Position numbers and translations under genes: made by a program. Positions 7,022-43,519 of a DNA stretch of 52,528 nucleotides are shown here, piece after piece (positions within the stretch are counted from its first letter, which is position 1; each line of letters starts with the position of its first letter). The stretch comes from Candidatus Gastranaerophilales bacterium (GTDB lineage: Bacteria; Cyanobacteriota; Vampirovibrionia; Gastranaerophilales; Gastranaerophilaceae), in NCBI GenBank assembly GCA_944326515.1, contig CALVEI010000007.1, positions 1 through 52,528 of the forward strand. Direction: 5' to 3'. Under the pieces are notes generated by a model. It did no database searches, was not told the origin of the DNA, and saw nothing but the letters and a program-made list of their open reading frames with translations.

Positions 7022-8758
7022 TTACTCCTTCTTATTTTTTTGAGGTGTAGTTTTGTCAGGTGCAATATTTAAAATACGAGCTGTTTGCAAAGCAACTTCT
7101 CTAAATACCGGAGCTGCTACAGTGCTGCCCCATAATGCACCTTTTGACGGAGAGTCAATTACAACATATATTTCTACTTGCGGATTGCTTGCAGGAAAAT
7201 AACCGATAATTGATGTAACCAGTTTGTTCGTATACCCTTTAGCACCGGAAATAGATTTTCTAGCAGTACCGGTTTTTGCAGCTACGTGGTAATCTTCCAA
7301 ATTAACTGGAGACTTCGAACGGCCAATACTTCCTGCTAGCAGCCTTGTTACCGCTTGGGCGGTTTCGGGTTTTATAGTTTGTATATGTTTTACTTTTTCA
7401 GCTTCTTCTTCAGGTGTGTATTTTATTACGTGAGGTGTCACTCTCACGCCGTTATTTGCTAGTGCAGATATGGCAGAAACCATTTGTATGGCTGTTACAG
7501 AAATACTGTAGCCATAACCTATTGACGCATGAGTGGATTTTTGCCAATCAGACGGATTTGGAATAAGTCCCCTTGATTCACCCGGTAAATCTATGCCTGT
7601 TTTTTCACCTATGCCAAATTTTTTCAAAACATTGTAGTGCTCGTTTCGTGTCATCATCAAAGCGGCTTTTGCGCTACCAACGTTGCTTGAGTGTTCAAAT
7701 AGGTAATACAAATCTATATTACCGGGGTAAGGACGTGTATCGTAGTCATAGTTTTTGATTACCCATTTATCAATTTCAATTTTACCTGTATCAAGAATTT
7801 TTGAATTTTCAAACAGTCTTCCGTTTTCTATTGCAGAAGCAATAGTAAGAGTTTTAAATGTTGACCCCGGTTCAAAAACGTCACTTAATGTCCAGTTTGT
7901 TAATTGGGTTAAAGTAGCTTTTTTGTAGTTGTTAGGGTTATAGCTTGGGTAAACAGCATAGCCTAATATTTCCCCGTTTTTAGGGTTCATAACTATAACC
8001 GTGCCTCTTAGTGCGCCTTTGTCTTTGATTATTCTGTTTAATTCCACTTCACAAACGTGTTGGATTGCAGAATCCAAAGTCAATGTGATAGATTTACCTT
8101 TTAACGGTGAAGTTGTTGCTGCAGGATCAGTGTCAACCTCGTAGATAATATCTCCGTCAGGTGTTTTTTCAAAATTTACGTTTTGTTCAACTTCTTCAAG
8201 TTTTTCTTTTGCTGTTAGTTCAACACCTGCTGCAACATCAGCATCAGGGTTGTAGTAACCCAAAATATGTGCAGCCATTGTGCCTTGAGGGTAAACTCTT
8301 TCGTTCTTTTTGCCAAGGCTTATTTCTCTCAAACCTAATTTTCTTATAGTTTGAGCTGTTGTTCTTGATATATCTTTTTTAAGAACAATAACTTTTTCAT
8401 CTTGAGCAAGCTTTTTAGCAAGTTGATTTTTATTTAGATTTAACACCGGAGCAAGTATTGCTGCAAGCTCATTTGGCGTGTGGTCATAATACTCTTGGTG
8501 AGCGTACACATCAAAAGATGTTTTATCAGATGCCAATTTAATCCCATTTCTGTCAAGGATTGCGCCTCTCATTACAAAGTTTTTGGCTGTTCTTTGACGT
8601 TTTGCCTGAGCTCGATAGTTTTTTACATCGATAACCATTATCAAAAACAGGTAAATTACGATAACAAAACATATAACAATGCATAAAATTTGCCATAGTA
8701 TAAGTTTTTTATCGAACTCTTTAAACTTCTCTTTATCGCTTTTATAATTCCGTCCCAT
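7022..8758 (-). CDS. ftsI: Peptidoglycan D,D-transpeptidase FtsI (class B PBP)
   Basis: Septal cross-linking transpeptidase anchored in the inner membrane. Residues 1-20 are cytoplasmic, one membrane helix spans about 20-44 (ILCIVICFVIVIYLFLIM), then a PBP dimerisation domain (about 60-200, starting RGAILDRNGIKLA) and the transpeptidase domain. Active-site motifs: S299-T-F-K302, S357-S-N359 and K495-T-G-T498. Length 578 aa is usual for FtsI. It starts the ftsI-murE unit, an order typical of dcw clusters, but ftsL, mraY and murF are absent here. The start is set by a TATAAT box 7 nt upstream; there is no Shine-Dalgarno. Confidence 0.93.
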   Translation of the reverse strand: MGRNYKSDKEKFKEFDKKLILWQILCIVICFVIVIYLFLIMVIDVKNYRAQAKRQRTAKNFVMRGAILDRNGIKLASDKTSFDVYAHQEYYDHTPNELAAILAPVLNLNKNQLAKKLAQDEKVIVLKKDISRTTAQTIRKLGLREISLGKKNERVYPQGTMAAHILGYYNPDADVAAGVELTAKEKLEEVEQNVNFEKTPDGDIIYEVDTDPAATTSPLKGKSITLTLDSAIQHVCEVELNRIIKDKGALRGTVIVMNPKNGEILGYAVYPSYNPNNYKKATLTQLTNWTLSDVFEPGSTFKTLTIASAIENGRLFENSKILDTGKIEIDKWVIKNYDYDTRPYPGNIDLYYLFEHSSNVGSAKAALMMTRNEHYNVLKKFGIGEKTGIDLPGESRGLIPNPSDWQKSTHASIGYGYSISVTAIQMVSAISALANNGVRVTPHVIKYTPEEEAEKVKHIQTIKPETAQAVTRLLAGSIGRSKSPVNLEDYHVAAKTGTARKSISGAKGYTNKLVTSIIGYFPASNPQVEIYVVIDSPSKGALWGSTVAAPVFREVALQTARILNIAPDKTTPQKNKKE

Positions 8759-38920: not shown

Positions 38921-40285
38921 ATGAAACAAAAAATTGTAATCATAGGCGGAGTTGCCGCAGGGCCTAAAATAACAGCTAAACTTTTAAGGACAAAAGACTT
39001 TGATTGTCAGATAGATCTATACACGGAAGAAAACCTGATATCATATTCATCTTGCGGACTACCATATTATATAGAAGGACTTATCCCCGACTCTAACAGA
39101 CTAATCGTAAGACGTCCCGAACAGTTCGAAGAACAAGGTGCAAATATACACCTCAACAAAAGGTGCACTAAAATCCTGCCGGAAGAACACAAAATTATTA
39201 TTCAAGATACCATAACCGGAGAAACTCAAGAAGTTGAATACGACAAACTTGCCATCACAACAGGTGCAAGACCGATAATTCCATCAATAAAAGGAATTAA
39301 CTTAAAAAATATTTTTAGCATAAGAACACTTCAAGACGGAATAAATATTCGACAAAAAATGCTTGAATCTAAAAAAGCTGTTATCTTAGGGGGCGGTTAC
39401 ATAGGCATAGAACTTCTTGAAGCTTTTCATGCCAACAATATCTTTACCACCATGATAGAAAGAGAAGACCACATACTTTCTCTTCTTGATCCTGAAATAA
39501 GTGACCTTGTTAAAGAAGAAATTCTGGCTATTGCCAAAGACAATGTAGATATAATTACTTCTGACGCAATAACAGCATTTGAAGGGACAGATAAAGTCGA
39601 AAAAGTTATTACTAAAAGCGGAAAAGTCATAGAAACTGACATGGTAATCATAGCAGCAGGCATAAGACCAAATACCGAAATTGCAGCAGAAGCAGGCATA
39701 GAACTTGGTGTCAGCAACGCAATTAGGGTAAACAACAGAATGCAAACCTGCACAAAAGATATCTACGCAGCAGGTGATTGCACAGAAAATTTTCATCTTG
39801 TTTCAAAAAACTATGCTTGGATTCCACTAGGCTCAACAGCAAATAAAGAAGGACGCTGCGCAGCAATTAACATGGCAGGTCAATACGATGCCTTCCCAGG
39901 AGTTTTAGGCTCTGCTGTAACCAGATTTAGAAATCTTACAATCTCTCTTACAGGTTTAACAGAAACTGAAGCAAAAAAATTTGGTTTTGATGTAATCTGT
40001 GCAACAATGACAAAAAAAGACAAAGCAGGCTACATGCCTGATGCAGCTAATATTACAATAAAACTCGTAGTAGATAAAAGATTCAAAAAAATTCTTGGGG
40101 CTCAAGCCTTTGGCGGCGGTAACGCGGACAAGAGAGTCAACACTGTGGCTTCTGCAATACAAGCGGAACAAACCCTAGATGAATTTTTGCATCTTGATAT
40201 GACTTACGCACCTCCGTTTTCTACTGCTGTTGACCCTTTAATATCAGCTGCACTTATCATAAATAACAAGATATACAAAAACTAA
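38921..40285 (+). CDS. CoA-disulfide reductase / NADH oxidase-like flavoprotein
   Basis: A 454-residue pyridine-nucleotide-disulfide oxidoreductase of the class with one redox Cys. FAD motif IIGGVAAGPK (7-16), redox Cys45 in SYSSCGLPYYI, NAD(P)H Rossmann motif VILGGGYIGIELLEAF, second FAD block IYAAGDCTEN, and the C-terminal dimerisation domain with AVTRFRNLTISLTGLT and LHLDMTYAPPFSTAVDP. Family members reduce CoA disulfide or use O2 or persulfide; in an anaerobe an oxygen- or thiol-detoxifying role is plausible. It is a single gene with its own promoter and terminator. Confidence 0.88.
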   Translation: MKQKIVIIGGVAAGPKITAKLLRTKDFDCQIDLYTEENLISYSSCGLPYYIEGLIPDSNRLIVRRPEQFEEQGANIHLNKRCTKILPEEHKIIIQDTITGETQEVEYDKLAITTGARPIIPSIKGINLKNIFSIRTLQDGINIRQKMLESKKAVILGGGYIGIELLEAFHANNIFTTMIEREDHILSLLDPEISDLVKEEILAIAKDNVDIITSDAITAFEGTDKVEKVITKSGKVIETDMVIIAAGIRPNTEIAAEAGIELGVSNAIRVNNRMQTCTKDIYAAGDCTENFHLVSKNYAWIPLGSTANKEGRCAAINMAGQYDAFPGVLGSAVTRFRNLTISLTGLTETEAKKFGFDVICATMTKKDKAGYMPDAANITIKLVVDKRFKKILGAQAFGGGNADKRVNTVASAIQAEQTLDEFLHLDMTYAPPFSTAVDPLISAALIINNKIYKN

Positions 40286-40856: not shown

Positions 40857-42218
40857 TTAATCTTTTTTTAAAATCTTTTGCATTTCTAATAAAGCTGTAT
40901 ATGTAGGCATAATCAAAAGCTGTTCACCTTTATCAATACTATCAACTGCAGAAAAAACGGCTTTTTTAATATCATCAATGACTTCTATTTTAGACTCATC
41001 AAATCCAGCATACTTCATTCTAACAGCCATATCATAGGCTCTTATACCGCTTATAATAATATCATTCGGATAATCCTTTAATAGTTCAAAATCAGCATCC
41101 CACAACCATGAGACATCTCTACCATCAGCATAATTGTCATTAATAATAATCAAAAGTTTTGCACAGGTATTTTGATTGACGGTTCTCAAAACTTCAGATG
41201 CACCTGTAGGATTTTTTATCAACTGAACAAGAATGTTTCTCTCATTATATTTAAATTTTTCCGCTCTTCCAAAAACAGATTTGTAAGAATGTAAAGCCTG
41301 TTGAATCAAATAAGGCGCAATACCAATCTCTAAAGCAATACTGATAGCAGCAAGAGCATTATAAGCATTGTATAAACCAACAAGAGGAACTCTAAAATAA
41401 AGCTCTTTGCCTTGAACATATTTACTTGTACTAACCGATATTTCAGAAAAATCGTCATATATTATAACTTTGCCCTTATAATCAGGCTCATGTCTTTTTC
41501 TTTCACAGTTTTCGCAATAGTATTTGCCAATATGAGCATAGTATCTTTTTTCGTATGACAAATCTGTTCCACAAGAACAAGTAACTGCCTCAGCAGGTGC
41601 CAAAGAGTCAACAACTGCTGTTTTATAGACTATTTCATCAAATCCATAAAAAATTCTATTGTTTTCAGAACCCAAATCGTACAACATAGGATCATCGGCA
41701 TTAACAACAAGATTCAATTTAGGATTTTTATTTATAGCTTCTTGTATTTTTTTCGCAGTGGTATCAAGCTCACCATACCTGTCCAGTTGGTCTCTAAAAA
41801 GATTTGTAACTAAAAGATAATCAGCATTTATGTAATCATATAACTTTGTTAAGTATGCTTCATCAGATTCCAACACAGCATAATCAAATCTGGAAAAAGG
41901 TTTATAACTCACAGCAAGAGAACTTGCAATGCCTGACAACATGTTAGCACCTTTTTCATTGTGTAATACAGAATTTTTTGCAACTTTTAAAATATGTGCA
42001 AGTAAACCTGCTGTAGTTGTTTTCCCATTTGTACCAGTTACGGTAATAATGTTTTTTTCACAGTATTTAGACAAAAAAGATAAAAAGTTTTTTGATATTT
42101 TTAAAGCGACAAGCCCGGGCATTGAAGTCCCTGAACTTTTCATCAAATGTAATCCCCTGTTTACGTTTTTTGCAGCAAATAAAGCGCTGTAAAAACTTAT
42201 CTTCTCCATCATTTCCAT
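40857..42218 (-). CDS. murT: Lipid II isoglutaminyl synthase subunit MurT (Mur-ligase-like)
   Basis: With the glutaminase GatD it amidates D-Glu of the stem peptide in lipid II. The 453-residue protein has ATP loop VTGTNGKTT (60-68), LESDEAYLTKLY, VTNLFRDQLDRYGE, and the MurT-specific inserted zinc ribbon with Cys214, Cys216, Cys235 and Cys238 (TCSCG and YCENC), followed by GRAEKF and NDNYADGRDVSWLWD of the C-terminal domain. gatD, usually next to murT, is not adjacent and not in the window. The gene starts 7 nt after TATAAT with no SD and is divergent from folC through a symmetric promoter. No clear terminator was seen after it. Confidence 0.88.
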   Translation of the reverse strand: MEMMEKISFYSALFAAKNVNRGLHLMKSSGTSMPGLVALKISKNFLSFLSKYCEKNIITVTGTNGKTTTAGLLAHILKVAKNSVLHNEKGANMLSGIASSLAVSYKPFSRFDYAVLESDEAYLTKLYDYINADYLLVTNLFRDQLDRYGELDTTAKKIQEAINKNPKLNLVVNADDPMLYDLGSENNRIFYGFDEIVYKTAVVDSLAPAEAVTCSCGTDLSYEKRYYAHIGKYYCENCERKRHEPDYKGKVIIYDDFSEISVSTSKYVQGKELYFRVPLVGLYNAYNALAAISIALEIGIAPYLIQQALHSYKSVFGRAEKFKYNERNILVQLIKNPTGASEVLRTVNQNTCAKLLIIINDNYADGRDVSWLWDADFELLKDYPNDIIISGIRAYDMAVRMKYAGFDESKIEVIDDIKKAVFSAVDSIDKGEQLLIMPTYTALLEMQKILKKD

Positions 42219-42254
42219 ATATTTGATTATATCGTAAAATATAAAGTATGGAAA
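42212..42254. promoter_or_regulatory. Mirror-symmetric divergent promoter of murT and folC
   Basis: Plus strand: TTTCCA (42212-42217), 17 nt, TAAAAT (42235-42240), 7 nt, folC ATG (42248). Minus strand: TTTCCA (42254-42249), 17 nt, TATAAT (42231-42226), 7 nt, murT ATG (42218). All elements are symmetric about 42233. Each -35 box overlaps the start of the opposite gene, because TTTCCATA is the complement of TATGGAAA. No ribosome binding site exists for either gene. Confidence 0.65.
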
Positions 42255-43519
42255 ATGAAAACTATCAAAAAGCTATTAACTTGATTACATCACAAGAAAA
42301 ATTTCACATTTGCCTTGGTTTAGAGAGAATTTTGCAAGTTTTAGCTTTACTTGGTAATCCACAGGAAAAACTTAACATTATTCACGTTGCCGGCACTAAC
42401 GGTAAAGGCTCAACTTGTGCAATTTTGTCTAAAATTCTTACCTGTGCGGGTTATAAAACGGGTCTTTACACAAGCCCACACATACTTGAATATACAGAAA
42501 GAATCAAAATCAACCAAAGAAATATTTCAAAAACCGATTTTTCAGACTTGATAACAGAAATATCTGTTCTTGCAAAAATAAACGGAATTTATCTAACAGA
42601 ATTTGAATTATTAACCGCTGCAGCATACAAACATTTTGCAGACAAAGAAACTGATATCTGCATAATAGAAACAGGACTTGGCGGAAGATTAGATGCGACT
42701 TCAGCAATAAGTAAAAATTTACTTTCTATCATAACATCAATAAGTCTCGACCACGTTGACAGACTAGGCGATACAATAGAAAAAATAGCATACGAAAAAG
42801 CAGGAATTATAAAAAAAGGCTATCCTGTTTTAATTAGCCAAAACAACTGCGGTTTTGACGCAGTAAAACAAATTGCAAATCAAAAAAACAGCACGCTTAT
42901 AACACCTAAAAAAAGCGTTGAACTAATTTTTGAAAACAATAAAAATTACGCCAAATATGATAGCAATAAATACGAATTTAACCTGCTTGGATTGTGGCAA
43001 AAGGAAAACTTAGAACTTGTATTTGCAGCTGTTAACTATTTAAAAAGTCAAGGCTACGAAATCTCTCAACAAGCAATAACTAAAGCCCTAAAAAAAGTAA
43101 GCTGGGTATGCAGAATGCAATACATTCCTAAATTCAATCTTTTAATAGACGGAACACACAACCCCGACGGGGCAAGGGTTTTACAACAAAGCTTGGATTA
43201 TTATTTTCCAAATACAAAAAGGGTTTGGGTGTACGGCTCTTTAACAACAAAAGATTATCAAAAAGTTATGCAAACACTTTTTAAACCGGATGATGAAATT
43301 TATTTTTACAACTTTGATTATCCAAACAGTGTTCCGTACGAAAAACTTAAAGAAAACGCGCCTTATGCACTGCCATTAAACATGAGAGAGCTTGAATATC
43401 TGATTACAGAGAACAAAGAATCTCTTATCATAATTTCCGGTTCATTTTATATGATTGGACAAATATTAAATTCAAGTAATCTTTTTCAAAATATCGCCGA
43501 GTTGGTTAATATCTATTAA
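42248..43519 (+). CDS. folC: Folylpolyglutamate synthase / dihydrofolate synthase
   Basis: Adds glutamate to folates and may also make dihydrofolate from dihydropteroate. The 423-residue Mur-ligase-superfamily enzyme has the ATP loop HVAGTNGKGST (about 46-56), YTSPHILEYTERIKIN, TGLGGRLDATSAI, SISLDHVDRLGDTIEKIAYEKAGI, and the C-terminal LLIDGTHNPDGA. All FolC marks are present. It starts 7 nt after a -10 box without a Shine-Dalgarno. No terminator is visible; the response-regulator gene starts 70 nt later with its own SD. Confidence 0.95.
   Translation: MENENYQKAINLITSQEKFHICLGLERILQVLALLGNPQEKLNIIHVAGTNGKGSTCAILSKILTCAGYKTGLYTSPHILEYTERIKINQRNISKTDFSDLITEISVLAKINGIYLTEFELLTAAAYKHFADKETDICIIETGLGGRLDATSAISKNLLSIITSISLDHVDRLGDTIEKIAYEKAGIIKKGYPVLISQNNCGFDAVKQIANQKNSTLITPKKSVELIFENNKNYAKYDSNKYEFNLLGLWQKENLELVFAAVNYLKSQGYEISQQAITKALKKVSWVCRMQYIPKFNLLIDGTHNPDGARVLQQSLDYYFPNTKRVWVYGSLTTKDYQKVMQTLFKPDDEIYFYNFDYPNSVPYEKLKENAPYALPLNMRELEYLITENKESLIIISGSFYMIGQILNSSNLFQNIAELVNIY

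Follow-up and report, generated by a model that had tools for sequence, protein, structure and literature searches.

The 29-bp region between the divergent genes murT and folC in the genome of a gut bacterium of the Gastranaerophilales holds two back-to-back -10 boxes, and we consider it quite probable that the best explanation for it is a pair of overlapping, mutually exclusive promoters of the sigma-70 type that give rise to two leaderless mRNAs. The arrangement is real and conserved; in kind it is a condensed version of promoters and leaderless genes already known.

The murT-folC junction

The window analysed here (52,528 nucleotides) is contig C7 of a 2.23-Mb genome. It carries murT on the minus strand (40857..42218, 453 aa, lipid II isoglutaminyl synthase subunit MurT) and folC on the plus strand (42248..43519, 423 aa, folylpolyglutamate/dihydrofolate synthase), two predicted leaderless genes that diverge from ATGs separated by 29 bp and that both open with ATGGAAA. 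Domain searches bore out the gene identities that had been proposed from the sequence: the murT product matches Pfam MurT_C (PF08353, 121 bits, 2.5e-35) and the Mur ligase middle domain (Mur_ligase_M, PF08245), and the folC product scores 347 bits against TIGR01499, above the cut-off of 163. Since the best NCBIfam match to MurT (4e-95) lies under the curated equivalog cut-off, the name MurT rests on the MurT_C domain together with a GatD-like gene found at another site of the genome. This candidate gatD, the best match to NF045636 (C4:5518-6258, locus L069; 228 bits, under the curated cut-off), is located on contig C4, unlinked to murT. It is itself apparently leaderless, with NATAAT (AATAAT or CATAAT) approximately 6 nt before the ATG, TTTTTTG upstream and no Shine-Dalgarno (SD) sequence in nearly all of the 22 genomes of the genus where it was found.

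On the plus strand TTTCCA (42212-42217) is followed by a 17-nt spacer, TAAAAT (42235-42240), 7 nt and the ATG of folC at 42248, and on the minus strand TTTCCA (42254-42249) is followed by a 17-nt spacer, TATAAT (42231-42226), 7 nt and the ATG of murT at 42218. The layout is centred on position 42233, and boxes, spacings and centre are exactly those of the original prediction on both strands. The two -10 hexamers are separate, 3 bp apart, and form together with the central TCG a 15-bp core, ATTATATCGTAAAAT (42226..42240), which is flanked by the spacers to the start codons of murT (42219..42225) and folC (42241..42247). No SD sequence is present between the -10 box and the ATG of either gene.

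From this layout we infer the transcript starts, their mutual exclusion, the mode of translation and any regulation of murT and folC as follows. The 29-bp region would be a pair of back-to-back, overlapping housekeeping promoters, each initiating at, or at most one base from, the A of the ATG of its own gene (42218 for murT and 42248 for folC). Both mRNAs would then be leaderless, presumably translated through direct recognition of the 5' AUG by 70S ribosomes and fMet-tRNA. With predicted starts about 28-30 bp apart the two polymerase footprints should overlap almost fully; mutually exclusive occupancy would thus follow from the starts being approximately 30 bp apart, the -10 boxes 3 bp apart and the size of the footprint, and the tight overlap supports, as a deduction, the earlier suggestion that only one polymerase can probably bind at a time. 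Low activity is expected with weak -35 boxes, so the two promoters would probably fire independently, with interference only if one of them were strongly activated.

Conservation, the proposed -35 boxes and a probable class of leaderless genes

Conservation in relatives had been named as a check on the prediction, and when it was run both -10 hexamers were found intact in 23 of 23 genomes of the genus. The core ATTATATCGTAAAAT is exact in 20 of them, and in the other three only its 3-bp centre differs (ACT in G005, ACG in G027 and GCG in G028). In an alignment of approximately 815 bp from 19 genus genomes with a mean pairwise identity of 0.77, the 15 bp of the core are the longest stretch without variation, the next being 5 bp; choosing these 19 genomes for an exact core accounts in part for that length, yet they make up 19 of the 23. 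The distance from the -10 box to the ATG is 6-7 nt for murT in all 23 genomes and 6-7 nt for folC in 18 (the spacing in G012 was read by eye), and in these canonical genomes the flanking spacers vary in sequence while their length is held. Both genes thus have a -10-like TANNNT approximately 12 nt before the ATG at conserved spacing, and neither has an SD sequence except folC of G021 and G028. Together the -10 conservation, the ATG spacing and the lack of SD sequences support the earlier proposal of divergent promoters serving two genes that are probably leaderless. Two downstream start candidates in murT, M3 and M4, were rejected as they are not conserved, whereas M1 holds its spacing.

The folC start lies further away in five genomes (G005, G021, G025, G027 and G028), where TAAAAT is nevertheless intact. 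In G021 and G028 folC has a short leader of the SD type (GAGG or GAGGGG), and the intergenic regions of G005, G025 and G027 are longer; in the expanded regions of the latter two folC has a separate TCGTAAAAT-6-ATG. Because TAAAAT remains intact where the folC start has moved, part of the core may serve murT alone (for example as a T-rich spacer or an extended -10) or a folC mRNA with a short leader. Relatives in which spacing, leader or separation has changed offer natural variants with which to test the constraints that overlapping promoters and leaderless starts place on one another. In both G025 (L119) and G027 (L120) the core seems to be partly duplicated between murT and folC, with separate -10 boxes and TTTTACG in both copies.

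The 43-bp symmetry is conserved in part only: both -10 boxes are kept throughout, but the 7/7 spacing occurs in 9 of the 23 genomes, with 6/7 or 6/6 in nine more and uncoupled starts or leaders in the remaining five. Likewise, "perfectly mirror-symmetric" describes the geometry in this genome; it does not describe the sequence, where 30 of 42 positions over the 43 bp match as a dyad, so that the spacing is symmetric and the sequence is not. Within the 29-bp intergenic stretch 16 of 29 positions match, and since 12% of base shuffles reach the same identity, sequence dyad symmetry was rejected as a signal.

It had further been proposed that the opening codons of each gene supply the -35 box of the other, which would lock start codon, promoter and spacing together. 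This part found no support. The proposed -35 boxes lie within codons 1-3 of folC (for murT, 42249..42254, minus strand) and of murT (for folC, 42212..42217, plus strand; variants TTTTCA, TATCCA, TATTCA and CTTTCA), and TTTCCA matches TTGACA at four of six positions. Of the 40 genes whose leaderless -10 box is perfect, 8 have a 4/6 match against 5.7 expected from shuffles, whereas 5/6 or 6/6 matches are enriched, 7 against 0.6. Some promoters of the genome thus do depend on -35 boxes, yet little can be read from a 4/6 match, as its frequency is close to that in shuffles and solely the better matches are enriched. On the murT side TTTCCA is present as a 4/6 match at 16-17 bp in most canonical genomes, overlapping the start codons, and it is mostly lost when the folC start moves: in the five genomes concerned the best murT -35 match is AAGACC, TATCCC, CTTACA, ATTATT or ATCATT, and TATAAT-6/7-ATG persists. 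With folC shifted in 5 of 23 genomes and both -10 boxes remaining, neither start codon appears to be tied to the promoter of the neighbouring gene. The presence of TTTCCA on each opposite strand follows from both genes starting with ATGGAAA, for which there is a simpler reason, namely that the leaderless class favours ATGGA.

This class can be seen genome-wide. When TATAAT was located relative to the first ATG of 1,372 called genes, positions -12 and -13 formed a peak of 26 and 9 genes; the mean per position was 2.5 between -15 and -25 and 4.8 between -15 and -55. SD motifs predominate elsewhere. Because the peak stands above the baseline, a minority class of predicted leaderless genes appears to exist beside the dominant SD class, and by their -10 boxes and spacing murT and folC are predicted members of it. 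ATGGA starts occur in 12 of the 35 leaderless-class genes and in 148 of the 1337 others (about three-fold, p = 3e-4); with the class defined by TA[AT]AAT the figures are 18 of 51 and 142 of 1321 (p = 6e-6). A count of TATAAT-N7-ATG alone (72, against 60 in a reversed control) was discarded as uninformative, as it ignores gene starts, and replaced by these gene-level counts. Two further candidate leaderless genes were noted in the window, at 7022-8758 on the minus strand (TATAAT-7-ATG) and at 38921-40285 on the plus strand (TAAAAT-6-ATG).

The two genes resemble the "TA-led" genes described by Zheng et al. 2011 (PMC3160421), which have a TANNNT signal about 10-12 bp before the start codon and no SD sequence. 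That paper omits this lineage from its list of phyla with leaderless genes and describes many Cyanobacteria as having neither signal, unlike the situation here, where predicted leaderless genes form a minority class beside SD-led genes. Our literature search found no paper mentioning both Melainabacteria and leaderless. The murT gene of Mycobacterium tuberculosis (Rv3712) has been reported as leaderless with the -10 box TAAACT 7 bp before the start (PMC8210147), similar to the murT predicted here; in M. tuberculosis murT and gatD form one operon, whereas in this genome the two sit on different contigs, gatD having a predicted leaderless start of its own and murT having folC as its divergent neighbour.

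Among 30 murT loci from other genera of the family, folC is adjacent in one, from genus g40, and three further g40 species also have folC next to murT, giving four g40 species with the divergent pair; among the loci inspected, no genus other than this one and g40 shows the adjacency. In the g40 species folC has TATAAT-6-ATG and murT a TATAAT about 7-9 nt upstream, so that both genes are apparently leaderless, with the -10 boxes 14 bp apart (ATTATA-ACGCAAAAGAAACA-TATAAT in G062). In another genus, g26, TATAAT lies 7-9 nt ahead of the murT ATG and folC is not adjacent, and most of the other genera carry an AGGA-type site in a murT leader. This distribution suggests that murT may have become leaderless before, or upon, meeting folC, and that the back-to-back form in this genus would be one of several spacings tried. 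In several family members, in-frame TAA or TAG stops were seen within the folC matches (loci L165, L170, L173, L178, L182, L188 and L190), which could be frameshifts, pseudogenes or matches overrunning the end of the gene.

Alternative explanations

Layouts of this kind could arise by chance in an AT-rich genome, and in number they are no rarer than that. The bare layout, defined as CAT-6/7-[-10]...[-10]-6/7-ATG with a gap of 14-40, was found 22 times in a sample of approximately 1.55 of the 2.23 Mb, taken as stretches, compared to 20-29 in five first-order simulated sequences, and a first local scan for promoter-like sites overall gave no excess either (38 against 38.9 in shuffles). Functional meaning comes instead from conservation and from the position at two real gene starts: of the 22, only 2 have as their ATGs the chosen starts of both genes in a called divergent pair, and the two -10 boxes of murT-folC are kept in 23 of 23 genomes at a background identity of approximately 77%. 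Conservation already disfavours chance, the probability of which we regard as negligible. The conserved core might instead be the operator of a DNA-binding regulator controlling murT and folC, and the invariant run does take in the 3-bp centre in 20 of 23 genomes. Still, the conserved bases coincide with the two -10 boxes and the dyad of the intergenic region is weak; the exact core occurs once in the genome, matches with at most two mismatches number 35 against 28 in the reversed control, and in the genus genomes scanned the core is found once each or is absent. An operator at this junction is thus very unlikely, and a regulon operator was rejected, as the core is unique in the genome and its exact matches in four other genera are not at the murT-folC junction.

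A more serious contender is that the murT promoter alone is strictly leaderless and under selection, TAAAAT being kept mainly as an upstream element of murT (-13 to -20) and folC using variable short leaders. The core does persist in G021 and G028 despite the SD-type leader of folC, and in G025 and G027 despite the separate folC promoter copy, and in g40 the sequence upstream of the murT TATAAT is T-rich (TTTTGCG, TTTTGAG or TTTTAAG) with the folC -10 box 14 bp off. But the g40 sequences cut both ways, as the hexamer is not kept there as a -10 box, so a role for murT alone needs no TAAAAT; moreover, TAAAAT-6/7-ATG is retained for folC in 18 of 23 genomes, and the separate folC copies in G025 and G027 are again TCGTAAAAT-6-ATG. 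We therefore regard this explanation as unlikely, though well worth keeping in mind. The original prediction went further than two promoters and suggested that polymerase exclusion would couple lipid II amidation and folate polyglutamylation; in a strong form of this reading the symmetry is regulatory and the coupling deliberate. The spacing does make the two polymerase sites overlap, and bidirectional promoters in E. coli can compete when one side is activated; five such promoters, however, showed negligible competition at basal activity (PMC12825309). Since basal activity there is too low for competition, which appears only upon activation, pathway coupling is possible but not the default expectation. 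Deliberate coupling is made very unlikely by the starts or leaders being uncoupled in 5 of 23 genus members, by the restriction of murT-folC adjacency to this genus and g40, and by there being no metabolic link between the two steps evident here.

Known divergent promoters and a second pair

Overlapping promoters for two leaderless mRNAs, the explanation we prefer for the junction, would share with bacterial bidirectional promoters the divergent sigma-70 promoters with overlapping polymerase sites, the two mRNAs, the centring on the -10 boxes and the expected exclusion. Bidirectional promoters are defined by divergent starts 7-25 bp apart with a shared or reciprocally overlapping -10 (Warman et al., PMC10268837), 18 bp being the most common spacing (Warman, Forrest, Wade, Grainger; PMC12825309, PMC10268837). 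At murT/folC, by contrast, the -10 boxes are adjacent rather than shared or interleaved, both genes are predicted to be leaderless, and the predicted starts are 30 bp apart here and about 28-30 bp apart in the 18 canonical relatives. By the published definition this would not strictly be a bidirectional promoter, but it would work like one. Our literature search turned up no bidirectional leaderless pair already described. Lambda PR/PRM, tetA/tetR and ermE/eryC1 are divergent overlapping promoters, and some of these overlapping divergent promoters yield leaderless mRNAs. Overlapping divergent polymerase sites are likewise a feature that murT/folC shares with EcoRV CR/M (PMC5333194), but all four of these systems involve regulator or resistance genes with known operators, and no operator was found at murT/folC.

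It is possible, though somewhat short of probable, that the Gastranaerophilales have a small class of divergent pairs in which the whole 18-29-bp intergenic region is the polymerase-binding core for two leaderless mRNAs, and in which promoter, transcript starts and start codons co-evolve as a unit. If so, murT/folC and a ketosynthase pair from an aryl-polyene-like cluster would be the first two conserved examples of such a class and a natural setting for testing polymerase exclusion at leaderless starts. Should the transcript starts be confirmed, this would be a very compact form of two-way gene expression, dispensing with leaders and ribosome sites and with its intergenic core taken up by two -10 boxes. 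The second tight divergent pair of predicted leaderless genes came from the same scan and lies on contig C34 (L222:14907-14926), where CAT-ATTTGATATAATACTACC-ATG leaves an intergenic region of 18 bp between the genes for a ketosynthase/ApeP-dehydratase fusion and a Ketoacyl-synt_2 protein. With a common -10 region (TATAAT-6-ATG on the plus strand and TATTAT-7-ATG on the minus strand) and predicted starts 19 bp apart, it appears to fit the published bidirectional type better than murT/folC does. Five further genomes have homologous genes without this junction. The 18-bp intergenic sequence is identical in 12 of the 13 genus genomes where the junction was recovered, although the shorter of the two proteins shares only 53-62% identity with its homologues once the closest relative, G006, is set aside.
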